Below the pieces are notes generated by a model that did not search any database, had not been told where the DNA came from, and saw only the letters and a list, made by a program, of their open reading frames with translations. The translations under genes and the position numbers were made by a program. From positions 1 to 37,379 of the IMG/VR virus record IMGVR_UViG_3300028394_000010: a stretch of 37,379 bases of DNA; one strand, given 5' to 3'. How positions within the stretch are numbered: position 1 is the stretch's first letter; every line of letters begins with the position of its first letter. Shown here in pieces: positions 4,235 to 37,379 of this stretch. The stretch is from a virus.

Positions 4235-4593
4235 AGTGCGCGGATTTTGTAGGGCTGTTGTTCTTGGCGCGAGATGTAGCCCATAGCGTACATCTGAACA
4301 CGCGCAGCTACAGCAAGCACAAGGCGCTTGGTCATTTTTATGAGCTAATTGTTGAAGCGGCAGATGACTTTGCCGAAGCGTACCAGGGTCGGCACGGTTT
4401 GATCGGGCCGATCACGCTGATGACAGCCAAAAAAACAACTAATATTGTTGAATTCTTAGAAGAGCAGTTGAAAGAAATTGAGGGTTGTCGGTACGAAATT
4501 GTTGACAAGACGGATATGTCTTTGCAGCAATTGATTGATAACATTATAGAAATTTACCTTCGCGCCTTGTACCGTCTGAGGTTCTTGGCATGA
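4231..4593 (+). CDS. Hypothetical protein, DUF5856-like (ferritin-like helical?)
   Basis: The 120-aa product contains FLARDVAHSVHLNTRSYSKH, KALGHFYELIVEAADDFAEA and YQGRHGLIGP. This resembles the phage family I know as DUF5856, which other annotations sometimes compare with Dps or ferritin-like proteins because of the H...H..FY...D..AE helix pattern. The first helix is hydrophobic but not a convincing signal peptide. It is coupled to the portal gene (ATGA) and to the next gene (ATGA). No virion role is proven; the name is from memory and the function is unknown. Confidence 0.6.
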   Translation: MKCADFVGLLFLARDVAHSVHLNTRSYSKHKALGHFYELIVEAADDFAEAYQGRHGLIGPITLMTAKKTTNIVEFLEEQLKEIEGCRYEIVDKTDMSLQQLIDNIIEIYLRALYRLRFLA

Positions 4594-5444
4594 CATTAAC
4601 TGTCAACCATTCAACCGCTGCCGATGGCTCGTTTAGCGCCACGGGAGCGACCGCGTGGAATGCAGCACATACGTTGTCTGGAACGATTGATATTGCCAAC
4701 GGTGGAACTGGACAGACTACATCGACAGCGGCAATCAATGCGTTGTTGCCAACTCAAGCCACTAATTCTGGTAAATATCTAACCACTGACGGAACCAACA
4801 CTTCTTGGGCTACGGTTAGCGGTTCTGGGACGGTTACGAGCGTCTCAGTTGTGTCTGCAAATGGTTTGGCTGGGTCAGTAGCCAACGCTACTACAACGCC
4901 AGCCATAACGCTGTCTACAAGCATAACAGGGGTATTAAAAGGCAACGGCACGGCGATCAGCGCGGCCACTAGCGGGACTGATTACCAAGCACCTATTACG
5001 TTAACCACAACCGGAACATCTGGTGCGGCTACGTTTGTAAGCAACGTCTTAAATATTCCGCAATACACGGGTGGCGGTGGTGGAACTCCTGGCGGGTCTA
5101 ACACCCAGATCCAATTTAATAATTCCGGTTCGTTTGGCGGGTCTGCAAATTTCACTTGGGATGGCACTAACGCTCAGTTAGGTTCACAAGGAGCGTTGCG
5201 GTTTGCTGATGCGGATAGCAGCAATTATGTAGCGTTTAAATCCCCGGCTACGGTTGCCACAAACGTGACTTGGACGTTGCCAAGTGCAGATGGGGCATCT
5301 TCGCAGGTGCTTTCTACCAATGGTTCTGGCACGTTGTCTTGGGTAACTCAAAGCGGTGGTGGAGGCGGCAGTCCGAATTTGGACGGTGGAACACCATCAA
5401 GTAATTATGGCGGTATTACCGCAATTGACGGAGGTACACCGTAA
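4590..5444 (+). CDS. Tail fibre-like structural protein
   Basis: This 284-aa Gly/Ser/Thr/Asn-rich, nearly Cys-free protein is built of short beta-prone repeats. It carries the IANGGTGQTT motif (about residues 35-44) seen in many phage fibres, then stretches such as TQIQFNNSGSFGGSANF. A flexible GGGGS-like linker sits near the C-terminus. This composition is typical of trimeric fibre shafts. It opens the adhesin island that sits between portal and scaffold. It is coupled to the following gene (TAATG), which also looks like a fibre; they may assemble together. The exact receptor role is unknown. Confidence 0.75.
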   Translation: MTLTVNHSTAADGSFSATGATAWNAAHTLSGTIDIANGGTGQTTSTAAINALLPTQATNSGKYLTTDGTNTSWATVSGSGTVTSVSVVSANGLAGSVANATTTPAITLSTSITGVLKGNGTAISAATSGTDYQAPITLTTTGTSGAATFVSNVLNIPQYTGGGGGTPGGSNTQIQFNNSGSFGGSANFTWDGTNAQLGSQGALRFADADSSNYVAFKSPATVATNVTWTLPSADGASSQVLSTNGSGTLSWVTQSGGGGGSPNLDGGTPSSNYGGITAIDGGTP

Positions 5445-6268
5445 TGGCCGTTCAGATTCAACTTAGAAATGGTACTGCCGCGCAATGGACATCTGCCAAT
5501 CCCACGCTTGCCGTTGGCGAATTAGGTGCTGAAACAGATACGGGCAAATTTAAAATTGGTACTGGGTCAACGGCTTGGAATAGCCTTGCCTATGCGGCGG
5601 TTGGTACTGTTACTTCCGTAGCGCAGTCATTTACCGGCGGTATTGTTTCGGTTGCGGGTTCTCCTGTTTCAACTTCGGGCACTTTGGCTTTGACGGTCGC
5701 CGGGACTAGCGGCGGAGTTCCATACTTTTCAAGCGGCACGGCTTGGGCATCTTCTGCTGCATTGGCGGCAAATGCTTTGGTTATTGGTGGTGGTGCTGGC
5801 GCGGCCCCGGCAACGACCACGACCGGCACGGGTGTTTTGACGTTCTTGGGGACGCCATCTAGCGCGAACTTGCTTTCGGCGATGACTGATGACACCGGCA
5901 CTGGGCTGTTGGTCTTCAACAATGCTCCGGCGCTGACTAATCCGACTGTTACGAACTACGTTGAGACGCTGTATTCGGCCAACACTAGCACGGCAATCAC
6001 GGTTGATTTGACCAACGGAACTGTCCAGAACCTGACGCTGACGGGCAATGCAACGATCACAATGCCAACTGCTGTAGCTGGCAAATCGTTCATTATTATC
6101 CTCTCTCAGGACGCAACCGGAAGCCGGACGGTTACTTGGTCAACCGTATCTTGGCCTTCCGCAACCGCGCCAACAATCACCAGCACCGCGAGTAAACGGG
6201 ATATTTTCTCGTTTTTCTCTAACGGTACAAGCTGGTTTGGAACAACACTCGGACAAAATTACACATAA
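5444..6268 (+). CDS. Fibre protein with Mtd-like N-terminus
   Basis: 274 aa. Residues 1-50 (MAVQIQLRNGTAAQWTSANP, then GELGAETDTGKFKIGTGSTA) match the N-terminal motif of the major tropism determinant family, a virion-attachment module at the base of many phage fibres. The rest is Thr/Ala/Gly-rich beta structure, ending with a segment (residues about 190-270) resembling the small C-terminal knobs of other phage fibres. No diversity-generating reverse transcriptase is present in the genome, so the Mtd resemblance is structural only. Start and stop overlap both neighbours (TAATG). Confidence 0.75.
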   Translation: MAVQIQLRNGTAAQWTSANPTLAVGELGAETDTGKFKIGTGSTAWNSLAYAAVGTVTSVAQSFTGGIVSVAGSPVSTSGTLALTVAGTSGGVPYFSSGTAWASSAALAANALVIGGGAGAAPATTTTGTGVLTFLGTPSSANLLSAMTDDTGTGLLVFNNAPALTNPTVTNYVETLYSANTSTAITVDLTNGTVQNLTLTGNATITMPTAVAGKSFIIILSQDATGSRTVTWSTVSWPSATAPTITSTASKRDIFSFFSNGTSWFGTTLGQNYT

Positions 6269-8262
6269 TGTTTGCTGCATCTAAATCAGGTCGAGTTGCC
6301 GCTGCCGCCGCCACTACGGACCCGTATTTTCCGTATGTCCCGTTGCTGTTGGAGACAACCAGCACTAACGGGCAGCAGAACAATACGTTTCTAGACTCCA
6401 GCACCAACGCATTCACCATCACCCGCAACGGAACCCCGACGCAGGGGTCTGTGACTCCGTACTGGCCTAATGGGCAATGGAGTAATTTTTTTAATGGCAG
6501 TCCGGACTATTTATATAATAGCTCAAACAATGTAGCACTTCAAATGGGGACCGGCGATTATACAGTTGAGTTTTGGGCATATTCACTTGGATTTTTTTCT
6601 GGGTTTCCTGTTCTTTTAGAGATTGGTAGGCCGTCAGCATCAGCGGGTGTTGGATTTCAAATTGACATAAACACAGCTGGTAATGTTGTTGTGTATGGAG
6701 GGACAGGAACCGGAACCTTATTGGTTACTTCTTCGCAAGCTATATCTCAATACAATTGGTGTCATATTGCGTTAGTTAGATCTAGCGCAGGAACAAAATT
6801 GTATATTAATGGTTCTCAATCTGGATCAACTGCGTCTGATAGCACAAATTATACTAATGGCTATTTGTGGATTGGTGTTAACGCTGGTGGGGCAGCTTCA
6901 TTTTATACCGGTTATCTTTCAAATATTCGCGTAGTCAAAGGCACGGCTGTCTACACCTCCAACTTTACGCCTAGCACAACCCCGCTCACGGCAATTACCA
7001 ATACTTCGCTGCTGACCTGCCAAAGCAACAGGTTCATTGACAACAGCGCTAACAACTTTACCATCACGGCGAACGGCACTCCCCGCGTCCAAGCATTCCA
7101 GCCGTTCTCACCGACTGCTTCGTACACCGCTGCGGCGTATGGGGGAAGTGGGTATTTTAATGGAAGCACTGATTATTTAAGTCTTGCCGATAATACTGCG
7201 TTACAACTTGGTACGGGTGATTTTACAATTGAAGGATGGTTCTACATTTCTGGGGCCACTTCAACTGCATACAATTTAATTAGCAAGGGCGCGGCGGCAA
7301 CTGGATGGTCGTTAAATACCACAACCGGCGCAAGGATTCAATTTAGTTATACGGCATCAAATTTGACAGGGGCAACCACAACTCTTGTACAAGGAGCGTG
7401 GTATCACATTGCTGTAGTTCGTTCTGGAAGCGCGTCTGGAAATTTAAAAATTTATATCAACGGAGTTCAAGAAATTGCAAGTGCAGGTGCGGTTAATGAC
7501 GATTTTAACCAAACTAGCACAATGTACATTTCTGCCAGCAGAACTGCTACTTTGCCGTTAAATGGATATTCTTCAAATGTCCGGGTGGTAAAAGGCACAG
7601 CCGTTTACACCGCAGCTTTTACGCCTCCAACAACCCCACTTACAGCAATTACTAACACCAGTCTTCTAGCTAACTACACCAACGCCGGGATCTACGACGC
7701 TGCGGTGCAGAACAATACGCTTACGGTCGGAGATGCCCAAGCATCAACCACGGTATCTAAGTGGTCGCCAACGAGCATGAAGTTTGATGGGACTGGGGAT
7801 TGGTTGACGGCTATTGACAACCCGCAACTACAACTTGGCACGGGAGATTTTACGATTGACGGATGGCTGTACCTATCTGCAAACGGCGTTGTTTACGGGC
7901 TTGTCAGCAAGGGAACGGCAACAACAGGATGGTCGGTCAACGTAACAATATTAAACAAACTTCAGTTTAGCTATACGACGTCCAACTTGACTGGCACAAC
8001 AACATTAGCCACAGGCACTTGGTATTATTTTGCTGTGGTGCGATCTGGCAGCGCAAGTGGGAACCTGAAGGTTTATCTAAATGGATCGGTTGATGCCACT
8101 AGCGGCGGCGCTGTGACGGACAACTTTAACCAAACAAATATTCTGTATGTTGGTGCAGATCGGGTTGGGGCAATGCCTGTAAACGGATACTTGCAAGACG
8201 TTCGGGTTACAAAATACGCTCGCACGATCACGACGCCAACAGCAGCATTCCCAACGAGGTAA
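6268..8262 (+). CDS. Adhesin with three LamG/concanavalin A-like domains
   Basis: This 664-aa protein has three internal repeats of a lectin/glucanase-like jelly roll. Each contains a version of ALQLGTGDFTIEGWFY followed later by WYHIAVVRSGSASGNLKIYI and by VRVVKGTAVYTAAFTPP. The repeats start near residues 70, 285 and 505. LamG_3-type domains bind carbohydrates, so this is a likely receptor or capsule-binding adhesin. The gene is more AT-rich than the replication genes, and repeats 2 and 3 are much more alike than repeat 1, implying a recent duplication. The N-terminus (FAASKSGRVAAAAA) probably anchors it. Coupled upstream by TAATG. Confidence 0.85.
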   Translation: MFAASKSGRVAAAAATTDPYFPYVPLLLETTSTNGQQNNTFLDSSTNAFTITRNGTPTQGSVTPYWPNGQWSNFFNGSPDYLYNSSNNVALQMGTGDYTVEFWAYSLGFFSGFPVLLEIGRPSASAGVGFQIDINTAGNVVVYGGTGTGTLLVTSSQAISQYNWCHIALVRSSAGTKLYINGSQSGSTASDSTNYTNGYLWIGVNAGGAASFYTGYLSNIRVVKGTAVYTSNFTPSTTPLTAITNTSLLTCQSNRFIDNSANNFTITANGTPRVQAFQPFSPTASYTAAAYGGSGYFNGSTDYLSLADNTALQLGTGDFTIEGWFYISGATSTAYNLISKGAAATGWSLNTTTGARIQFSYTASNLTGATTTLVQGAWYHIAVVRSGSASGNLKIYINGVQEIASAGAVNDDFNQTSTMYISASRTATLPLNGYSSNVRVVKGTAVYTAAFTPPTTPLTAITNTSLLANYTNAGIYDAAVQNNTLTVGDAQASTTVSKWSPTSMKFDGTGDWLTAIDNPQLQLGTGDFTIDGWLYLSANGVVYGLVSKGTATTGWSVNVTILNKLQFSYTTSNLTGTTTLATGTWYYFAVVRSGSASGNLKVYLNGSVDATSGGAVTDNFNQTNILYVGADRVGAMPVNGYLQDVRVTKYARTITTPTAAFPTR

Positions 8263-8264
8263 TC

Positions 8265-8681
8265 ATGCAACTCGCTAATCAAGATCTGGTCATTAAAGAC
8301 CACACAGAGTGGTTTCCTAACACTTCGTTTGGCGACCGTGGCCCATCGCTCGATTGGATTGCCGAACAGGGTTACTATGTCATCTCGGTTTGGAAGCCAT
8401 ACAACCACGCAACTGAAAAGTTGGTTTCTGCCGCTCCGCATCTGTTTGACGGAATGTGCTGTCTGGTTGACGTTGAGCCATTGACTGCTGACGAGCTCCA
8501 GGCTCGCATTGACACGCAATGGCAGGTCATTCGCACTCAGCGCAACCAGATGCTTAAGGATACGGACTGGACGCAATTGGAAGACTCCCCCGTTGGCAAA
8601 GCAAAATGGGCGGCGTACCGGCAAGAGCTTCGTGATATAACTACGCAAGATGATCCGTTTGACATCACTTGGCCGAAATGA
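8265..8681 (+). CDS. Tail assembly chaperone-like protein
   Basis: The C-terminal half of this 138-aa protein (RTQRNQMLKDTDWTQLEDSP, then AAYRQELRDIT, ending DITWPK) is the signature of phage tail assembly chaperones of the Phage_tail_APC type, which help fibres fold or attach. The N-terminal half (LDWIAEQGYYVISVWKPYNH) is typical of fibre-adjacent proteins in other phages. A GAGG site precedes ATG 8265. It directly follows the large LamG adhesin, which is the probable client. It ends in an ATGA overlap. Confidence 0.75.
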   Translation: MQLANQDLVIKDHTEWFPNTSFGDRGPSLDWIAEQGYYVISVWKPYNHATEKLVSAAPHLFDGMCCLVDVEPLTADELQARIDTQWQVIRTQRNQMLKDTDWTQLEDSPVGKAKWAAYRQELRDITTQDDPFDITWPK

Positions 8682-8899
8682 ACTTTTTTGGTGGTTCGTT
8701 TTTTAGCGGAAGTTTTTTTGAGACTGTAGCTGGTACATTTTTTGGCGGACAGTTTTTCAGCGGCGGCTTTTTTCAGACGGCCTACAACACTTACTTTAGC
8801 GGGCCGTTTTTCAGCGGCGGGTTTTTTGATTCTGTGGTGGTCGGTGCAGACCAATTGTTGATTAAACTTCGGTCATTCACCGAAAGAAGGAGATTTTGA
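8678..8899 (+). CDS. Phe-Gly tandem-repeat protein, 73 aa
   Basis: An in-frame TTG lies at 8669, but the ATG at 8678 overlaps the previous stop (ATGA) and is the likely start. After Met-Asn come three perfect-length 18-residue repeats: FFGGSFFSGSFFETVAGT (residues 3-20), FFGGQFFSGGFFQTAYNT (21-38) and YFSGPFFSGGFFDSVVVG (39-56). A charged tail ends FTERRRF. Each repeat is three FFxGx-like pentads plus three residues. There is no signal peptide. I do not recognise the family. Its place among adhesin genes suggests a virion component, possibly a short beta-solenoid. Confidence 0.75.
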   Translation: MNFFGGSFFSGSFFETVAGTFFGGQFFSGGFFQTAYNTYFSGPFFSGGFFDSVVVGADQLLIKLRSFTERRRF

Positions 8900-9204
8900 T
8901 GGCTATTAACCTCAAAGCAATTACCTCGGTAATGGGCTACCAGCAGATCACAAGTCTGAGTTCTGCTACCAAATTGACCGTACCGCCCCGCGATATAAGC
9001 GGATTGATTGGATCCCCTCGGATTGCTATCATTACGCCCGAAACGCAAGCCGTGCGCTGGCGTGACGATGGCGTAGCTCCAACCGCAAGCGTTGGGATGC
9101 CGTTGGCCGCTGGTGTTACGCTACAGTATGACGGTGATCTGTCGCAGATTCAGTTCATTGAGCAAACTGCCAGCGCCAAGTTGAACATCACTTACTATTC
9201 TTGA
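8899..9204 (+). CDS. Small virion-associated protein (putative)
   Basis: 101 aa. ATG 8899 overlaps the previous stop (TGATG) and has AAGGAG six bases upstream; a TTG one codon earlier is less likely. The sequence includes AVRWRDDGVAPTASVGMPLA and QIQFIEQTASAKLNITYYS. This is a beta-rich pattern that recurs in small structural proteins of other phages, in my recollection without an assigned function. No membrane segment or catalytic motif is visible. The adhesin context suggests a decoration or fibre-associated role. Confidence 0.65.
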   Translation: MAINLKAITSVMGYQQITSLSSATKLTVPPRDISGLIGSPRIAIITPETQAVRWRDDGVAPTASVGMPLAAGVTLQYDGDLSQIQFIEQTASAKLNITYYS

Positions 9205-9211
9205 GGCCAAA

Positions 9212-9700
9212 ATGCAAGTCTCTAACGACACAACCTCAGTTGACCCAATTGAGTACATTACCAAGCAGTTGCCCAAGGACTTGGTGCAGTTGCTACAGGT
9301 GCGTGACGAGTTGGCTGTTCGCCAAGGTGCTTTGTCTGCGGCTCAAGATGCCATGACTGACCGCGAAGCGGCCAGACAAGAATTGGCTGCGGCTCGTGAA
9401 GAAGCAAACGGATTACGGGCTGAAGCAAAGACCGACCGCGATGCCGCTAGGCTAGAGTTGTACAACGCCAAAGCAAAAGTTAAAGATACTACTGCACAAG
9501 CTAACGCTGCGCTTGCTGCTGCGGTAAACCGTGAGATCGCGGTTGAGTCGCGAGAAAAAGCGGTGGCAGATCGTGAGGCTTATCAGACTGCGGCCCAGGT
9601 TGAGATTGACAGCCAACAGGCTGATCTGAAAGCCAAGACCGCCGCCTTGGACGCTCGCATAAAAGCGTTTCAAGATAAAGTTGCTGCACTTACTGCGTAG
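9212..9700 (+). CDS. Coiled-coil protein
   Basis: This 162-aa Ala/Glu/Arg/Lys-rich protein is almost entirely heptad-like from residue 20 onward (REAARQELAAAREEANGLRA; AVNREIAVESREKAVADREA). It has no Cys or Gly-rich linkers and no membrane segment. It would form a long helical rod or trimerise. A GAGG site lies five bases before ATG. Placed between beta-rich virion proteins, it could be a stalk or chaperone for a fibre. The repeated DREA words make it look like an elongated spacer. Confidence 0.7.
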   Translation: MQVSNDTTSVDPIEYITKQLPKDLVQLLQVRDELAVRQGALSAAQDAMTDREAARQELAAAREEANGLRAEAKTDRDAARLELYNAKAKVKDTTAQANAALAAAVNREIAVESREKAVADREAYQTAAQVEIDSQQADLKAKTAALDARIKAFQDKVAALTA

Positions 9701-9708
9701 GAAAAATC

Positions 9709-10212
9709 ATGCCCGCTGTGTCTCTTTCAATTTTTGGTGGTGTTGGGGCGCAGTTTTTTGACAACAACGGCGTTCCGCTATCCGGTGGCAAGATTTACAC
9801 CTACGAGGCGGGCACAACAACGCCATTAGCCACGTACACCTCATCGTCTGGCAGCACCGCGCACACCAACCCAATTATTCTTAATTCTGCTGGGCGTGTG
9901 CCTAGCGGCGGTGAAATTTGGAATCAGTTACGGTTGTACAAGTTTGTGCTTGAAACCAGCACAAATGTTTTAATTGCCTCATACGACAATGTAGGGAGCA
10001 GCTTCAACGCCACCGCAATCATTGCCAATTTCACCGGCAACGGCTCCACGGTTGCATTTACGTTGGCAAGCGCCCCTGCGGGTGAGAATTCCACCAACGT
10101 GTACATCAACGGTGTGTACCAGCAAAAGAACACGTACAGCGTTGCGGGTGCTGTTCTTACATTCTCTCAAGCACCTCCAGTTACTTCAACTATTGAAGTC
10201 AACTACGTCTAA
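9709..10212 (+). CDS. Tailspike head-binding-like protein
   Basis: The N-terminal about 110 of 167 residues (GAQFFDNNGVPLSGGKIYTY, TTTPLATYTSSSGSTAHTNP, ILNSAGRVPSGGEIW) form the particle-binding beta module found at the base of P22-like tailspikes and fibres. The C-terminal part (GNGSTVAFTLASAPAGENST, VYINGVYQQKNTYSV) is a second small beta domain common in fibres. Here the head-binding module stands alone instead of being fused to a beta-helix. It probably acts as an adaptor for the neighbouring spike. AAGGA-like site before ATG. Confidence 0.8.
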   Translation: MPAVSLSIFGGVGAQFFDNNGVPLSGGKIYTYEAGTTTPLATYTSSSGSTAHTNPIILNSAGRVPSGGEIWNQLRLYKFVLETSTNVLIASYDNVGSSFNATAIIANFTGNGSTVAFTLASAPAGENSTNVYINGVYQQKNTYSVAGAVLTFSQAPPVTSTIEVNYV

Positions 10213-10221
10213 GGAACAATT

Positions 10222-10971
10222 ATGGCCGATACTAAAATTTCCGCTCTTACGGCGGCGACAACTCCTCTGGCGGGGACAGAAGTACTGCCAATTGTTCAAT
10301 CTGGAGCTACGGTTAAAGTCGCAAACAATGATTTGCGCCCAAAACAAATTCAATCAAATGCAACTAGCGGTGTGTTGCAAGTTGCCGGACCTACTGCTGC
10401 TGCGACCCGCGTAATGACGACGCCAGACGCAAATTTTACGGTGGCTCGCACTGATGCGGCACAATCGTTTACTGGCAATCAAACATTAAGTACCGGCAAC
10501 TTGGTTATTGGCACTTCGGGCGGAGGCGTCGACTTTTCTGCCACACCGGGCACCGGCACAAGCGAGTTGCTGGCTGACTATGAAGAAGGCACTTTTACCC
10601 CGCAATTGTTTTTTGGTGCTACTGAAATATCGGTATATAACGCACAAGCAGGCTGGTATACAAAAGTAGGCAACACAGTGTATTTCACAGTGTTTATTCA
10701 AGTGCAGCAAAAAGGCGCTGGAACTGGTGCGGTTACTGTTCGTAATTTACCATTTACCTCTCAATCTTCAAATGACCACAAGTATTCTTTTAGCGTTACA
10801 GGTCAAAGTTTGACGTTGCTTACTGGCGCATTGTTTGGTGTCATGGATCAAAACACAACGCAAGTTGGTATTTTTCAGACTGACTCAACAGGCGGCGTTG
10901 CATTAACTGATGCGGCATTTACCACATTCAGTAACGACAACGTAATCGTCACTGGCACATATCAAGTCTAA
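10222..10971 (+). CDS. Fibre protein
   Basis: 249 aa. The N-terminus MADTKISALTAATTPLAGTE followed by VLPIVQSGATVKVANNDL is a widely shared phage fibre start. A middle segment (DYEEGTFTPQLFFG, AGWYTKVGNTVYFTVFIQ) matches beta domains often found at fibre C-termini. No enzyme motif is visible. It carries a strong ribosome site (AAGGA, six bases). It lies between the head-binding protein and the beta-helix tailspike and is likely part of the same appendage. Confidence 0.75.
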   Translation: MADTKISALTAATTPLAGTEVLPIVQSGATVKVANNDLRPKQIQSNATSGVLQVAGPTAAATRVMTTPDANFTVARTDAAQSFTGNQTLSTGNLVIGTSGGGVDFSATPGTGTSELLADYEEGTFTPQLFFGATEISVYNAQAGWYTKVGNTVYFTVFIQVQQKGAGTGAVTVRNLPFTSQSSNDHKYSFSVTGQSLTLLTGALFGVMDQNTTQVGIFQTDSTGGVALTDAAFTTFSNDNVIVTGTYQV

Positions 10972-10979
10972 GGATTATT

Positions 10980-12695
10980 ATGGCGCTCACTAAAGCTAGC
11001 TACTCAATGGTAAGCGGAACGCCAATCAGCGTTCTGGATTACGGTGCTGACCCAACAGGCGCTGCAAACAGCACTGCTGCATTTCAACTTGCCGTAAATG
11101 AGGCTATTTCCCGCGCTGCATCATTGGCTGCTGGGGGTTCGGTAATTGACCCTACTTTTGTAGCAACACCAAATGTTGTTATCCATTTTCCAAGTGGTAA
11201 ATATTTACTCTCAGACGCAACTGGCGTAGATATTCCACCACAAGCTGGAAGTGCTTTAGTCCAGGCGTGTATCACTTTTTCCTCGGATGAGGGCGGTGCC
11301 ACTATTGTTGGAAATGTTACAAATATAGGGTTTAACTTTACTGGTGGTGGATACAGAAACAAGTTTTCAAATATTTTATTTGCAAAGTTTGGAACTGCTA
11401 TTCGCTTTGACACAAACAATAAAAACGAGTCATTTTTACAGATTGACTCTTGCCGTTCGCAGAGTAATGACATTTTTATTGATACTGTAAGTTATGCAGA
11501 ATCTCGGTCAACAATGATTGACATCCGCAATACTTATTGCGATGACACCCGAGTTTTTGTAAAGCATTACACCGATCACATGACAATTCGTGATTGCTGG
11601 ATGTACGCCAAAAAAGACTCTTACGATGCGCTTTTGTACTTGTCAGGCGATGGTAATGTCAATCTCTACGACAACTTCATGATTCCGTTTGGTTCTCAAA
11701 TTCCAAACCCTCAGAACGCTCGTTGGATTGACTTTGTTTCTGAAAGTGCCCAAAGCACAATGACAGATCGAAGCGTTAAATTTCTAAACATCCGTGGTTG
11801 CCGAATGTCTTTAGAAAGCGCACGACCGTTTATTTGGACGTATTCAAACACACCCCCCGGCCCACCCAATGCCATATCTTCAATCACGATTGAAGACAGC
11901 TACATTGGCGGCACTGGCGGCGCGTCCGTCATCACTTACAAAACGGGATACCCTGGCAGCGTCAATCTTAAAAACTGCAAGGTTCTTTCTGCTCCGTTGA
12001 TTGTCAGCGTTGATGCAGGCAATACAACCTACCCAGAACCAAGTGTTGCAATTGGTGGAGGTGGGTTTTTAACCTATCACACAATCATGGTAGATGAAGC
12101 AACTCGCCTTTCTCAAAATAACAGCTTCACGATCAATCTTGGAAACTTGATTGACCCCAATCTGATGCCATTTTATGTGGACACCACCACACAAACGTCT
12201 AAATACAAGACAACTTTTCCTTGGGAAGTTCCTTCCGACTATCGGATGCGTGCTGAAACAAACACAGGAACAACTGTCAAAACATCGTTCCCAATTTTCT
12301 TTGACTACAACCCGGCGGTTGCCAATAGAGACATTTGCTCTTTCATTCTTGTGACGGTAGGCAATGGAAACAGCGCGTTGTCAACATATCGGGCGCAGTC
12401 TACGTGCTTGGTGACAATCGTCGGTGGATTTACAGCTTCTGCTGAAAAAAGAATCATCACCACTGTTTTGCAAAACGCGCAAGGCGGCATCGCATACGCG
12501 ATTTCCGCAAATCCAACTGTGACTTGGAATGCAACAGGTACAGACACAATAGCTTTTGCAGGTTCTGGAACAACACAGGAGACAATCGATATGGTGTGGA
12601 ACTCGACAAGCGCGAGTGTTTCTTGGGCTTACATCATTCCGTTGTCCGGCATAAGGCCAAATCAACCATCTCTGCAACAATTTAACGTCTGGTAA
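10980..12695 (+). CDS. Tailspike with pectate-lyase-like beta-helix
   Basis: The 571-aa product starts with an adaptor (MALTKASYSMVSGTPISVLD) and the classic entry to a right-handed beta-helix (YGADPTGAANSTAAFQLAVN), as in Pectate_lyase_3 tailspikes. Aromatic/Asn-rich rungs follow through about residue 380, then a C-terminal beta domain. Such spikes bind and often cut host surface polysaccharide; the catalytic residues cannot be located by eye. The gene is AT-richer than the replication region, as expected for exchanged host-range genes. AAGGA five bases before ATG. Confidence 0.85.
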   Translation: MALTKASYSMVSGTPISVLDYGADPTGAANSTAAFQLAVNEAISRAASLAAGGSVIDPTFVATPNVVIHFPSGKYLLSDATGVDIPPQAGSALVQACITFSSDEGGATIVGNVTNIGFNFTGGGYRNKFSNILFAKFGTAIRFDTNNKNESFLQIDSCRSQSNDIFIDTVSYAESRSTMIDIRNTYCDDTRVFVKHYTDHMTIRDCWMYAKKDSYDALLYLSGDGNVNLYDNFMIPFGSQIPNPQNARWIDFVSESAQSTMTDRSVKFLNIRGCRMSLESARPFIWTYSNTPPGPPNAISSITIEDSYIGGTGGASVITYKTGYPGSVNLKNCKVLSAPLIVSVDAGNTTYPEPSVAIGGGGFLTYHTIMVDEATRLSQNNSFTINLGNLIDPNLMPFYVDTTTQTSKYKTTFPWEVPSDYRMRAETNTGTTVKTSFPIFFDYNPAVANRDICSFILVTVGNGNSALSTYRAQSTCLVTIVGGFTASAEKRIITTVLQNAQGGIAYAISANPTVTWNATGTDTIAFAGSGTTQETIDMVWNSTSASVSWAYIIPLSGIRPNQPSLQQFNVW

Positions 12696-12705
12696 AGGAG
12701 TCATC

Positions 12706-12993
12706 ATGGCACTTAGGCAAACAATCACAAAAACCTGTCCTTCAATTGCTTTGTTTGATGGGGTAAAAGTTGAATCTAATCCTGTTACTGTTTCAGATGT
12801 TTTTTACATTAAGGTTGAGGCAGTCACTGGAACAAAAGAAAAAGCAAATTGTTCTGTTTCTTTTACAGGTGAAAAAATTAAAATTCAAAAAATGTTTGAG
12901 TTCACCCCGTCAATGATGGCTGGAAACTTTATCGCGCAAGCATACGCGCACTTAAAAACCCTGCCAGAATTCGCTAGCGCAACTGACTGCTAA
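12706..12993 (+). CDS. Hypothetical protein, 95 aa
   Basis: This 95-aa protein begins MALRQTITKTCPSIALFDGV and shares its MAL.. opening with the spike before it. It contains alternating beta-like stretches and a C-terminal MMAGNFIAQAYAHLKTLPEF. Codons are markedly AT-rich. It has a very strong ribosome site (AAAGGAG, five bases). No family is recognised. Similar-size partner proteins beside spikes can be decoration or assembly factors, but nothing in the sequence proves it. Confidence 0.6.
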   Translation: MALRQTITKTCPSIALFDGVKVESNPVTVSDVFYIKVEAVTGTKEKANCSVSFTGEKIKIQKMFEFTPSMMAGNFIAQAYAHLKTLPEFASATDC

Positions 12994-32545: not shown

Positions 32546-34798
32546 ATGGAACTGGTGGATCATATCATAGCCCTCGCGCCTGAGGGTGAAGTAGTTTTAT
32601 TCACTAAACAAGTCGAGCGCGAGGGCGGGTACGCTTACCCTGCGTTTCGTAAGCCGCGCGGTGAGGGCGCTTGGTACGTCAACATCGGCTCGTTCATCGA
32701 GTCGCGCTTTGACGGCCAGCGGGTCAGCGCGGGTGCTGCGTTCTGTGAGAACGTGTGGTGCTTGGTTCTAGATGACGTCGGTACGAAGTCGAAAACGCCT
32801 ACGATTCGCCCGACGTGGATCATTGAAACGTCGAAGGACAACTTTCAGTGGTGTTACGTATTCCGGCTAGACGATCAGCCCCACAAATCCGTCTATAGCG
32901 CGGCGATCAAGGCCATAGCAGCGGCGGGTTATACGGACCCCGGCGCTATCAATCCGGTCCGCAATATACGCATTCCCGGCTCGATCAATCTAAAGCCCGG
33001 GCGCGACCGTTTCGCCGCGCGCTTGGTTGAGTTCAACCCGTCGCGCGAGTTTAGTCTTGAAGAGATCTGCGGCGCTCTGTCGGTCGTCCCCGGCGCGGTC
33101 GAGACCACAACATTCCGTCCGGGTGTCCTAAAGGATGACGGGTCGGATGACGTTCTAGCGTGGCTTGTCGAGCGTAAGGAAGTCACACAAAAAGGCAATT
33201 CTGCGGGCTGGTGGGGCGTGATCTGCCCTAACAGCGCGGAACACTCAGACGGCAACCCAGAGGGCCGCTATATGCCCGCTTCGCGGGCGTATTGTTGTCT
33301 GCACTCGCATTGCACCGAGTGGGACTCCGCGCGGTTTCTAGCTTGGGTCGAGCAGGAGGGTGGGCCTAAACGGACCTATGGCCTACGTGACGAGCTTTTA
33401 GCGTCAGTCGTGAACGGCGCGTTGTCTAAGCTAACGCCTACGGAGATGTTTACAGATGACGCTAAAGCCGTGATCGCCCAGGTTGAGGCGCGTGAGCGGG
33501 CGCGGGTCGAGCGGTCGGATTGGTTCAAACGCTTCGCCTATGTGCAGTCGGACGACGCCTACTTCGACCTAGTTGACCGTGTGCTTATATCGCGTCGGGC
33601 GTTCGACGCGACCTATCGCGGGATCATGTGTCATTCGATGCACAATAACGGCGGCAAGGCCCGCATCATTAACCCGTCCCTATGGTTCGATGAGAACCGA
33701 ACGGCCGCTGGCGGCCACATCCTGGCGGGCTTGACCTATGCGGCCGGTGAGTCGGTTCTAGCCGTGCGGGACAATCTACCCTATGCGAACCGTTGGGTCG
33801 ACGCGCGGCCGACGCCTATGGCGGGGCCTATACAGGCATGGATCGACCATTGCCGCAAGCTCGTCCCAGTACAGTCGGAGCTAGACCATGTCTGGGACGT
33901 TATGGCCTATAAAGTGCAGAACCCGCGTGTGAAGATCAACCATGCAATCCTTCATGCGTCGGATGAGGGATCGGGTAAGGATACGATGTATGACCCGTTC
34001 ATCTGGGCCGTCTGCGGGGACAATAAGCATAATTTAGGGTTAGTCGACAATGAATCGCTCACGTCCCAATGGGGCTATCAACTAGAGTCGGAGATTCTAG
34101 TTATCAACGAGCTAAAAGAGGCCCTCGCGGCTGATAGGCGCGTCTTGGCCAATAAACTCAAGCCTATCATCGCGGCCCCGCCTGAGGTTCTAGCCGTGAA
34201 CAGGAAAGGATTGCATCCATATATGATGGCAAACCGGGGTTTCGTGCTCGCATTTTCTAACGACCTATTGCCTATTAGCATCAGCGCCCAGGATCGCCGT
34301 TGGTTCTGTATTTGGTCGCACGTGGGCCGCATGAGCGATTCTGACGGGGCCGCGATATGGCAATGGCTGAGAACGGGCGGGCGGGCGGCCGTAGCGGCTT
34401 GGTTGCACGCGCGCGACGTCTCGCGCTTCAATCCTGGGGCCGCTCCGCCTATGACGGAATTTAAACAAACTATGACTGAGAATTCGTTATCGGGCGCGGA
34501 GAGTTATATCCTTGAATTGATGAAGCATCGAAAGGGTGTTTTCACGCGTGGCGTAATCGCGGCCCCGTTACAGGCCGTTTTGGACGATCTAGCGCGTAGC
34601 GCGCCCGCTGGCTTGAAACTGTATCAGCAAGCGTTATTGCAAGCGATCAAGGAAGCCGGGTGGATCGACTGTGGGCGCGTCGCTGCGCGCGGGTTAGAAT
34701 CGAAGCGACACGTGTATTGCGCGCCCGATCTAGCGGCCGTGGGCGCGTCCACGCTGCGTCGGATGGTAGAGCCGGACTATCAACCGAACCCGCAATGA
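32546..34798 (+). CDS. Primase-helicase (AEP-like plus SF3/DUF5906)
   Basis: 750 aa. N-terminal RepB/AEP-like primase features: LVLDDVG (D76 D77), WIIETSKDNFQWCYVF, NPVRNIRIPGSIN. A Cys/His cluster follows (C227, H233, C250, C251, H253, C256) as in primase Zn sites. C-terminal superfamily 3 helicase: Walker A DEGSGKDT (473-480), Walker B ILVINE (517-522), sensor Asn N572 in LAFSND, arginine pair DRRW (583-586). A single chain would unwind and prime for the family A polymerase. AGGAG before ATG. The stop overlaps a hairpin. Confidence 0.9.
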   Translation: MELVDHIIALAPEGEVVLFTKQVEREGGYAYPAFRKPRGEGAWYVNIGSFIESRFDGQRVSAGAAFCENVWCLVLDDVGTKSKTPTIRPTWIIETSKDNFQWCYVFRLDDQPHKSVYSAAIKAIAAAGYTDPGAINPVRNIRIPGSINLKPGRDRFAARLVEFNPSREFSLEEICGALSVVPGAVETTTFRPGVLKDDGSDDVLAWLVERKEVTQKGNSAGWWGVICPNSAEHSDGNPEGRYMPASRAYCCLHSHCTEWDSARFLAWVEQEGGPKRTYGLRDELLASVVNGALSKLTPTEMFTDDAKAVIAQVEARERARVERSDWFKRFAYVQSDDAYFDLVDRVLISRRAFDATYRGIMCHSMHNNGGKARIINPSLWFDENRTAAGGHILAGLTYAAGESVLAVRDNLPYANRWVDARPTPMAGPIQAWIDHCRKLVPVQSELDHVWDVMAYKVQNPRVKINHAILHASDEGSGKDTMYDPFIWAVCGDNKHNLGLVDNESLTSQWGYQLESEILVINELKEALAADRRVLANKLKPIIAAPPEVLAVNRKGLHPYMMANRGFVLAFSNDLLPISISAQDRRWFCIWSHVGRMSDSDGAAIWQWLRTGGRAAVAAWLHARDVSRFNPGAAPPMTEFKQTMTENSLSGAESYILELMKHRKGVFTRGVIAAPLQAVLDDLARSAPAGLKLYQQALLQAIKEAGWIDCGRVAARGLESKRHVYCAPDLAAVGASTLRRMVEPDYQPNPQ

Positions 34799-35222: not shown

Positions 35223-35822
35223 TCAGAATGTTTCGAGTGTCCAGGCGGGCGCAACGTAGGCGGTCAACCCTTCCGGATCACGATAGGGCATCAGGCATCC
35301 AAAAAAGTCAGGTTCCTGGAGCGTAACGGCCGCGCATGACGTCCCGTTATGCCAGATTTTAGGGGCCCATGTTTTCCCGAATAACTTGTTAGCGGCCGCA
35401 AACTTTGCCAATACGGCCGGGTTTATCTGAGCGGGTTCTCCTGAGCATTTTTGCGGGATAACGCGCGGAATATCGGGAAACTTGCCGTCGACGGCCGCCC
35501 ATCCAATTGTCATGCCACCCACTACGCTAATCGTACCCTTCAACCCGTCGTCAGTTTCGATGACGGCCGCGTCGAGTTTATTCTTGGCCGGTTTGAGCAT
35601 TTTGATGACGTCGAACGGTAGCAGAATCGTTACCTTGTCGCTGACTTCGTTTTCCGCGCGCAGTGTGCGGTGAATGCCCAAGCAATGCCCGTCAGTCGCG
35701 GTTAAGATTGTGCGGTTTTGATCCGCTTCGACCCGAACCGTGTTCAGATAATAGCGAATATCTTGATCAGCGCTGAATTGTGAAATTGCGCGCAGCGCTG
35801 AAAGTTTGACGTTGATTTTCAT
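35223..35822 (-). CDS. Short beta-type sliding clamp (two domains)
   Basis: 199 aa. SQFSADQDIRYYLNTVRVEA and LTATDGHCLGIHR match domain 2 of bacterial DnaN; AVDGKFPDIPRVIP matches the end of domain 2 (E. coli LVDGRFPDYRRVLP). FFGCLMPYR corresponds to the C-terminal VVMPMR of domain 3, but about 18 residues follow it. Nothing corresponding to domain 1 is present (DnaN is about 366 aa). It would serve as processivity factor for the family A polymerase, probably as a trimer to keep six domains in the ring (inference). No clear ribosome site before its ATG. Confidence 0.85.
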   Translation of the reverse strand: MKINVKLSALRAISQFSADQDIRYYLNTVRVEADQNRTILTATDGHCLGIHRTLRAENEVSDKVTILLPFDVIKMLKPAKNKLDAAVIETDDGLKGTISVVGGMTIGWAAVDGKFPDIPRVIPQKCSGEPAQINPAVLAKFAAANKLFGKTWAPKIWHNGTSCAAVTLQEPDFFGCLMPYRDPEGLTAYVAPAWTLETF

Positions 35823-35895: not shown

Positions 35896-36321
35896 TTAGG
35901 CCGCTACAGTTTCACGTTCGCGCCGTGAATCCTCATAGAGTCGACACAATTTTGCAATTTCGTCGACGTCAGCGTGTACGTTGTCGCTGTACCCGTCGCA
36001 ACATTCGCTCCACACTCCGTCGACGTCATCGTGCATCAGCTGGACGCAAGCGTGGAGCTTCCACGCTTTCCCGACGCCAGCTAACGAGTGGAGCATTTTT
36101 CGATAGGCCGCATGAGCGGGATACTTGGCAAGAAAATCGCGTTGATGCTCGACCGCTTTTTGATAAACGTCGACAATATCAGCGCCCGGTTTAACTTTAC
36201 CGGCCATCTTCCATCCGAACCCGTGGTTTTTCATAACCGTCCCATCCGAACGATAGGATTTTACGTAATCAACGTAAACCAAGCGCCCAATTTCGGTTCC
36301 GTGTTTCGAGAGTGTTGCCAT
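35896..36321 (-). CDS. 141-aa hypothetical early protein
   Basis: Good ribosome site (AGGAGA, seven bases). Contains LSKHGTEIGRLVYVDYVKSY, RSDGTVMKNHGFGWKM and a Cys/His-bearing middle (WKLHACVQLMHDD, SECCDGY). The MATLSKHG.E opening is familiar from phage and plasmid proteins without function. First gene of the rightmost minus operon; expected 5' leader about 44 bases from the promoter at 36372-36400. Confidence 0.7.
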   Translation of the reverse strand: MATLSKHGTEIGRLVYVDYVKSYRSDGTVMKNHGFGWKMAGKVKPGADIVDVYQKAVEHQRDFLAKYPAHAAYRKMLHSLAGVGKAWKLHACVQLMHDDVDGVWSECCDGYSDNVHADVDEIAKLCRLYEDSRRERETVAA

Positions 36322-36371: not shown

Positions 36372-36400
36372 ACTTTACGCGCGCGATCTTGCCTTGTCAA
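36372..36400 (-). promoter_or_regulatory. Promoter for rightmost minus operon
   Basis: Minus strand: TTGACA (36400-36395), 17-base spacer, TAAAGT (36377-36372). Gives a 44-base leader to the gene starting at 36321. An ATG also lies six bases after the -10 and opens a 34-codon frame that overlaps the next gene. Confidence 0.65.
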
Positions 36401-36433: not shown

Positions 36434-36491
36434 AGTGTGGACACAATGTTAGCGTTTTGTTGGCGTTTTTTGGCGTGCGAGTGTCCACACT
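36434..36491. repeat. 11-bp inverted repeat
   Basis: AGTGTGGACAC at 36434-36444 and its reverse complement GTGTCCACACT at 36481-36491, 36 bases apart. The core GTGTGGACAC recurs directly at 36833-36842. Likely protein-binding sites. Confidence 0.75.
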
Positions 36492-36648
36492 TTTTGGCTT
36501 AACCACGCGGGTTTGCGGCCTGTACCCGGATGTTAACTAGTCTACTTTTGAAAAAATTTGAGTTTATATATATATGGGAATTTGGCGGGCGACGGCCACG
36601 AAAATCCGCGCGCATTTTCCCAGCGCAATTTTTTACCCGGTCAAAAAC

Positions 36649-36770
36649 CGCTCACATGTGGGTACACGCTCACACACTAAAAAATAGAACGATTTTTGTA
36701 GGCCGCTCACATGCGGGTACATACCACTCCACTTTATAACGGTTTTTTAAGACGCTCACATGTGGGTACA
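36649..36770. repeat. Three 18-bp direct repeats (iteron-like)
   Basis: CGCTCACATGTGGGTACA at 36649-36666 and 36753-36770, with one mismatch (ATGCGGG) at 36704-36721. Starts are 55 and 49 bases apart. Two copies contain the palindrome CACATGTG. A partial GTGGGTACA follows at 36772-36780 and GCGGGTACA at 36852-36860. Confidence 0.85.
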
Positions 36771-36778
36771 AGTGGGTA

Positions 36779-36820
36779 CACATCGGGGGCGCACATCGGG
36801 TGCACATCGGGGGCGCACGG
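36779..36820. repeat. Tandem CACATCGGG units
   Basis: Three near-tandem units: CACATCGGGGGCG (36779-36791), GCACATCGGGTG (36791-36802) and GCACATCGGGGGCGCACGG (36802-36820). They lie directly beside the 18-bp repeats. Confidence 0.8.
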
Positions 36821-36938
36821 CCGCATCGACCCGTGTGGACACGGCAAACAGGCGGGTACACAAGGGGGGCCGGGTAGGGCCGACGGCCGACCGGTCACGT
36901 AAACGCACCCCCCGCAAACATTTTTTAAAATTTTTTTT

Positions 36939-36946
36939 GTTACACT
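36939..36946 (+). promoter_or_regulatory. Possible extended -10 promoter for terS
   Basis: TGT-TACACT, an extended -10 pattern without a good -35 (ACATTT at 17-base spacing). The -10 ends six bases before the terS ATG, and no ribosome site is visible, so a leaderless late transcript is possible. Weak evidence. Confidence 0.35.
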
Positions 36947-36952
36947 TCAGCC

Positions 36953-37379
36953 ATGTTCAAATCTTTGCCACTAACTGTCAGAAATGTTCAGGCAACAGAG
37001 GCGCGTCTTCAGTCAATCTATGACGCGGCGAAGTTAGGTCTGAAAGGTGACTCGCTGGCGCTGGCTGCTGGTATGCTGCCCGCTGAGTATCGGCAACTGT
37101 GTCAGCTAGATCCGTTAGCGGAAATGGCAGAACAAAAAGGCCGCGCTGACAATGAAAAAGAGATCTCGCAAGTTCTCAATAACGCGGCGTTAAATGGCGA
37201 CGCTAAAGCCGCGTTAGAGATCTTGCGTCACCGGCACGAGTGGACGGCCAAGCAGGAAGTCAGCGTTGATGTGTATCAGCGGATCAGCATCACACAGGCG
37301 CTAGAAGCCGCGCAAACCAGAGTGCTAGAGAATGCAAAAAACGATCTATACATCAGCCGAAGAGCAGACGTTGATGACG
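36953..37379 (+). CDS. terS: Terminase small subunit, 5' part (continues to base 97)
   Basis: Begins MFKSLPLTVRNVQATEARLQ; residues about 24-50 (AAKLGLKGDSLALAAGMLPA, then EYRQL) look like the helix-turn-helix that recognises the packaging site. A helical oligomerisation region follows (KEISQVLNNAALNGDAKAAL). The frame leaves the window and ends at base 97 after circular closure, giving about 153 aa. It sits right after the repeat cluster, its probable target. No ribosome site is visible; see promoter note. Confidence 0.85.
   Translation, partial: MFKSLPLTVRNVQATEARLQSIYDAAKLGLKGDSLALAAGMLPAEYRQLCQLDPLAEMAEQKGRADNEKEISQVLNNAALNGDAKAALEILRHRHEWTAKQEVSVDVYQRISITQALEAAQTRVLENAKNDLYISRRADVDD
37318..37379. 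repeat. Terminal redundancy, right copy
   Basis: Identical to bases 1-62; marks circular closure of the genome. Confidence 0.95.

Follow-up and report, generated by a model that had tools for sequence, protein, structure and literature searches.

Phage lambda carries its replication origin within the initiator gene and recruits its helicase. The lambdoid O/ori system consists of iterons beside an AT-rich stretch, and exchange of replication genes alters its specificity, as in a lambda/P22 hybrid (PMC3349717). A different arrangement is found in SaPI Rep and SCCmec Cch2, self-loading initiator helicases with a C-terminal domain that recognises short repeats downstream of their own gene (PMC7581432). 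P4 alpha joins primase, helicase and a winged-helix domain binding origin repeats in one protein (PMC4234260, citing Yeo et al. 2002 and Ziegelin and Lanka 1995), and among the PLE satellites of Vibrio cholerae only cognate RepA/ori pairs replicate (PMC8263062). NrS-1 carries an 8-nt recognition sequence twice in mid-genome, and the available part of the source describes no iteron array (PMC7102993). Iteron origins with covarying initiators are already known from lambda O/ori, P4, SaPI and PLE.

Here we analyse a 37,379-bp stretch of viral DNA (IMG/VR record IMGVR_UViG_3300028394_000010; hereafter the window), a closed circle whose first 62 bases are identical to its last 62. We propose, with a probability of about 0.86, that positions 36435-36860 are an iteron-type replication origin, the iterons of which would be bound by the C-terminal winged-helix domain of the primase-helicase. 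The features concerned are the following, with repeat types A and B as defined below.

32546-34798, plus strand: primase-helicase of 750 aa, the proposed origin-binding initiator (DUF5906, PHROG DNA primase and NrS-1 helicase matches)
33506-34798, plus strand: covarying part of the primase-helicase, residues 321-750, which tracks repeat type
34457-34780, plus strand: predicted C-terminal winged-helix domain, residues about 638-745 (from model, structural matches and column ranking)
35223-35822, minus strand: 199-aa clamp protein with a DnaN clamp middle domain (Pfam)
36372-36400, minus strand: promoter-like TTGACA-17-TAAAGT for the leftward early genes, by consensus match only
36435-36490, no strand: inverted pair GTGTGGACAC (36435-36444) and GTGTCCACAC (36481-36490), with a third copy at 36833-36842
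36521-36537, minus strand: inverted distal iteron GTTAACATCCGGGTACA, beyond the AT box, conserved in type A relatives near -430 relative to terS
36534-36580, no strand: AT box, the proposed DNA unwinding element and least stable duplex of the genome
36649-36666, plus strand: iteron dimer 1, CGCTCACATGTGGGTACA, an exact match whose position is kept in type A relatives
36667-36674, plus strand: half-site CGCTCACA, by sequence match
36704-36721, plus strand: iteron dimer 2, CGCTCACATGCGGGTACA, an exact match whose position is kept in type A relatives
36753-36770, plus strand: iteron dimer 3, CGCTCACATGTGGGTACA, an exact match whose position is kept in type A relatives
36774-36780, plus strand: half-site GGGTACA, by sequence match
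36779-36811, plus strand: three CACATCGGG units, probably variable GC-rich filler, not conserved in relatives
36844-36860, plus strand: iteron dimer 4, GCAAACAGGCGGGTACA, degenerate with 3 mismatches
36866-36940, no strand: near-invariant box GGGTAGGGCC..ACCGGTCACG..AACGCACCCCCCGCAAACATTTTTT between array and terS, the same in types A and B (the constant box)
36953-37379, plus strand: terS, which runs off the window end, gives 153 aa once the 62-bp terminal repeat is closed, and overlaps terL

The proposed origin resembles that of lambda in its iterons adjoining an AT-rich stretch (PMC3349717), but it is remote from the initiator gene, the product of which would itself be the helicase. Primase and helicase are united in one chain in the window protein as in SaPI5 Rep (PMC7581432), SaPI Rep being compared here by description. 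In contrast to SaPI Rep and Cch2, the proposed window origin is situated ~2 kb further downstream, past variable genes and beside the packaging genes of an autonomous phage, and its iterons are dimers about 50 bp apart. Rather than directly downstream of the helicase gene, as in the SaPI Rep type, it is found at the far end of a gap to terS that measures 1.6-3.2 kb among relatives and contains variable genes. With P4 alpha (PMC4234260), the window protein shares the combination of primase, helicase and winged-helix domain, the last of these predicted here; the P4 alpha primase is of Toprim type, whereas residues 1-320 of the window protein match no Pfam family and show motifs like those of an archaeo-eukaryotic Prim-Pol by eye only. 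In the PLE system, too, the origin covaries with part of the initiator, there its DNA-binding domain, and is exchanged as a module while the rest of the initiator gene is conserved (PMC8263062), although RepA is a RepA_N protein of a satellite and the window initiator would be the primase-helicase of a free-living phage with many more specificities. The NrS-1 primase-polymerase-helicase has the helicase domain in common with the window protein (PMC7102993). New here are the phage group, the distance between initiator and origin, the position of the origin beside packaging genes and the number of specificities in one lineage.

A preliminary description of this DNA had reported three 18-mers, CGCTCACATG[T/C]GGGTACA, with start spacings of 55 and 49, next to three CACATCGGG units and near an AT-rich stretch. 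All three elements were recovered, the 18-mers as exact matches (dimers 1 to 3), the CACATCGGG units at 36779-36787, 36792-36800 and 36803-36811, and the AT-rich stretch at 36540-36580, with TATATATATA at 36565-36574. The cluster is real, but the limits originally given to it were too narrow, as the inverted copy, a fourth forward copy and the half-sites also belong to it. Each site comprises two 7-8-bp elements, CGCTCACA and GGGTACA, roughly ten bases (one turn) apart, and multiple oriented copies of this short repeat are clustered at one place, as in iteron origins. Allowing up to three mismatches, the 17-mer core is matched at five places in the 37,379-bp window, every one of them inside 36521-36860, compared to 0.12 expected from shuffles (at most one in any of 100), indicating that the cluster is more than chance. 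The genome contains 11 copies of GGGTACA itself where 2.6 are expected, and six of them fall inside the repeat stretch.

Searches of IMG/VR with TerL and TerS yielded about 150 loci from relatives. These have a conserved intergenic layout of ~400 bp, consisting of the inverted site, AT box, three to four forward dimeric sites ~50 bp apart, the near-invariant box and terS; across relatives this layout is constant and the repeat sequence varies. Phages with 98-99% identical TerS carry two unrelated repeat types, type A as in the window (CGCTCACA..GGGTACA) and type B (TTGCTGACA, TTGCCTACA), with sites spaced by 55/49 and 51/56, respectively, and by 9-10 bp inside a site. The sites of one genome have a common sequence and therefore vary in concert. 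Type B loci possess a corresponding inverted pair, GTAGGCAAC/GTTGCCTAC, at the same place as the GTGTGGACAC/GTGTCCACAC pair of the window, and the dimer 4 variant occupies other array positions in relatives L014 and L007. An exact-pattern scan of 2.9 million viral contigs found the A 17-mer and the B 21-mer confined to this phage family bar two single matches in unrelated coding DNA, and always paired with the matching helicase where a helicase was present on the same contig. Of 58 loci fetched by helicase alone, 54 had their densest repeat cluster in the 900 bp ahead of terS (4.6 expected), and the other four had it elsewhere. Types A and B co-occur in metagenome 3300027971.

More distant phages were also inspected. 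DSL-LC05 has a different array at the same place, and homology to the window proteins was detected for neither its primase nor its TerS. MW202483 likewise has an array, with a homing endonuclease gene (L005 5139-5585) located between it and terS and thus adjoining the proposed origin; no repeat array was found in the scanned stretch of MW202898. A DNA search of named phages with this region returned only one weak match, over terS/terL.

An easily melted AT-rich stretch next to the repeats is a further property in common with iteron origins. Genome-wide, the least stable duplex segments of 40 and 60 bp start at 36534 and 36523, and the former (36534-36573) sits between the inverted and the forward iterons. 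For 84 of 92 relatives, compared to 7.7 expected, the stability minimum of the locus falls in the last 900 bp ahead of terS. GC skew, previously suggested as a check for the origin, was uninformative, giving no signal and extrema that differ between the four circular genomes; this absence of an origin mark in the skew counts against the origin reading.

Comparison of types A and B identified the protein that goes with the repeats. In the group with 98-99% identical TerS, repeat type separates exactly with the primase-helicase (95-100% identity among A loci, 76-79% between A and B); for the polymerase, TerS and nearly all TerL, identity across repeat types is 96-100%. The break in identity is abrupt and occurs inside the primase-helicase gene near residue 320: between types, residues 1-320 are about 86-100% identical and residues 326-744 fall to 41-84%, with values for residues ~321-750 of 97-99% (A-A) and 65-66% (A-B). 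Among all window proteins compared across 11 long contigs, helicase residues 321-750 average 98 for A and 66 for B without overlap; the clamp gene also splits by type (96/67) and no other gene does so consistently. Two loci, L094 and L117, have an A helicase and A array yet a B-type triplet next to terS and are natural recombinants; the array sorts with the helicase when recombination parts it from terS. The A/B contrast alone may represent only one or a few transfer events.

The same association was observed across 103 non-redundant loci. Repeat similarity for locus pairs, which are not independent of one another, was 0.004 where TerS was alike and the winged helix different (143 pairs), 0.221 where both were alike, 0.126 where TerS was different and the winged helix similar (242 pairs), and 0.008 where both were different; TerS had a beta of 0.000 (p 0.51) in a multiple regression on all domains. 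Due to this non-independence of pairs, changes of repeat type were also counted on trees. The winged-helix and helicase-C trees need the fewest for the ten types (13 and 14), the primase-N tree needs 19 and that of TerS 25. Over the 103 loci, repeat type follows the C-terminal half of the helicase, not TerS. As in iteron origins, the array is accompanied by a candidate cognate initiator, recognised here by its repeat-covarying part.

These data bear directly on the two uses first suggested for the repeats, namely an origin recognised by the primase-helicase or a packaging (pac) site to which the small terminase, whose gene follows directly, would bind. TerS of headful phages binds sites in or near its own gene, which together with the location of the repeats directly upstream of terS favours packaging. 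The sequence of a pac site should however be conserved with TerS or track it, and the repeats are unrelated between phages with 98-99% identical TerS, no position in TerS tells 14 type A loci consistently apart from 8 type B loci, TerS distance predicts nothing further when the helicase is accounted for, and of the four trees that of TerS fits the repeat types worst. A packaging role of the repeats is contradicted by these results and is very improbable. A TerS site is more plausibly sought in the constant box at 36866-36940, because TerS is also constant across A and B.

This box, G-rich and then T-rich directly before terS, is recognisable in many relatives with TerS 65-71% identical. It is a candidate pac site, with a late leader or promoter equally possible; an R-loop/primer region is a further candidate role, and no intrinsic terminator was found at 36866-36940. 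The terS product has no Pfam or PHROG match, and the gene is named from its position and from an ISITxALxxAQxRV end in common with the annotated TerS of DSL-LC05.

Simple repetitive DNA, growing by slippage and recombination, could in principle covary with the helicase only through linkage. The stretch at 36779-36811 does behave in this manner, the CACATCGGG units being absent from close relatives or swapped for other GC-rich simple repeats (CCGC, GCACGC), and probably has no function as such. Co-inheritance by linkage also contributes to the covariation, since helicase gene and array are only about 2 kb apart. The iterons, in contrast, keep their spacing and orientation while all sites change sequence in concert, and they are unaltered where the gene content between helicase and array is reshuffled within type A. 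Furthermore, pairs with differing TerS and a similar winged helix still have common repeats, and arrays of different sequence occur at the same place in nearly all relatives. Slippage is consequently an extremely improbable source of the array as a whole.

The region also separates leftward genes from rightward late genes, and the repeats might be operators of a transcription regulator for divergent early and late promoters. A sigma-70-like promoter on the minus strand (36400-36372) is in keeping with this, as the single such pattern found where 0.6 were expected, and so are three extra iterons at -35, -26 and -17 of terS in type B phages (L088-L098, L112-L116), which suggest that the type B initiator could control terS expression as well. 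However, no regulator gene separates with repeat type genome-wide, many type A loci with the same repeats lack a 141-aa neighbour, and an origin accounts better for the AT-box minimum and the layout. We regard a regulator of this kind as improbable, noting that operator and origin roles are not exclusive in that the initiator could repress promoters too.

Two neighbouring gene products were rejected as repeat binders, the 141-aa protein (35896-36321) and the clamp (35223-35822), because many type A loci without both retain the repeats. The clamp gene is dispensable, being absent from three of five A, one of four B and both M contigs, with no effect on the repeats. Its product scores best as RusA-like in PHROGs despite the Pfam DnaN match, and in many relatives its place is taken by an unrelated gene of about 236 aa.

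The primase-helicase is assigned to DNA primase in PHROGs and matches DUF5906 at residues 472-585. Its only detectable relative of known structure is the NrS-1 polymerase helicase domain (6K9C/6K9E), which matches residues 465-667 (E 5e-8), and an SF3/D5-type helicase core was identified. The full-length AlphaFold model was poor (pLDDT 58.7) and served only as a hint; folded alone, the C-terminal domain is predicted to be a winged helix, with pLDDT near 90 over that part. A structural search (VIA) with this domain recovered mainly winged-helix domains at Z scores of 5-6, which are moderate for a fold that is common, and the P4 alpha domain was not among the matches listed. Foldseek against the PDB gave no significant match, which speaks against the origin reading, as do the commonness of the fold, the four of 58 clusters located elsewhere and the arrayless stretch of MW202898. 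The alignment columns that track repeat type best include wing residues 712, 713 and 718, among several in 712-720, and the loop 367-369, and none of the top 40 is within residues 1-180. A row from MW202483 was left out of the structure alignment. In L118, L115 and L015, the protein ends about five residues before that of the window and has a different tail, which looks like a normal stop and not a broken gene.

The view that the primase-helicase recognises an origin here, already raised in the preliminary description, is strongly supported by the covariation with residues 321-750, the position of the AT box as the least stable duplex of the genome and the precedents. We posit that the dimeric iterons would be bound by the C-terminal winged-helix domain, probably assisted by a second binding surface in the 321-450 region, and that oligomers would assemble on the forward sites and the inverted site, to both sides of the AT box. 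The assembled protein would open the AT box between the iterons, load itself as helicase and prime synthesis for the phage DNA polymerase A. Binding and initiation are proposed by analogy with SaPI Rep and Cch2 (PMC7581432), PLE RepA (PMC8263062) and P4 alpha (PMC4234260); melting, and the covariation as a sign of direct contact, are likewise our interpretation.

Because the repeats change in step with half of the primase-helicase, it appears that site and reader are exchanged together, like a lock and its matching key, such that a phage would exchange half of a replication gene together with a distant target site. In Vibrio satellites and lambda, exchange of this type changes the set of nucleases or competing replicons able to interfere (PMC8263062, PMC3349717). 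As an idea that is less likely than not, and more doubtful than the origin itself, at least ten mutually distinct initiator/iteron pairs might pass as cassettes between phages that inhabit the same waters and are ~98% identical in other respects. Selection against sharing an origin would drive these swaps, through escape from satellites, from origin-targeting nucleases or from competing phages that would bind or titrate common iterons. If true, replicon type would act like an immunity group. The locus also offers an origin and an initiator that can be tested in a P22-like phage group widespread in freshwater, of which we found no studied member. Its natural series of at least ten recognition sequences, all belonging to a single protein family, could allow the code of the winged-helix domain to be derived.

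Many relatives (L201, L209, L213, L221 and others) carry TTGTCCACA iterons about 300-450 bp before terS. This sequence is one base away from the DnaA box TTATCCACA, and the window has three copies of the GTGTGGACAC type. Elsewhere in the genome, the tail-fibre/tailspike region (window 4590-12993) varies greatly between relatives whose identity is otherwise about 95-99%.
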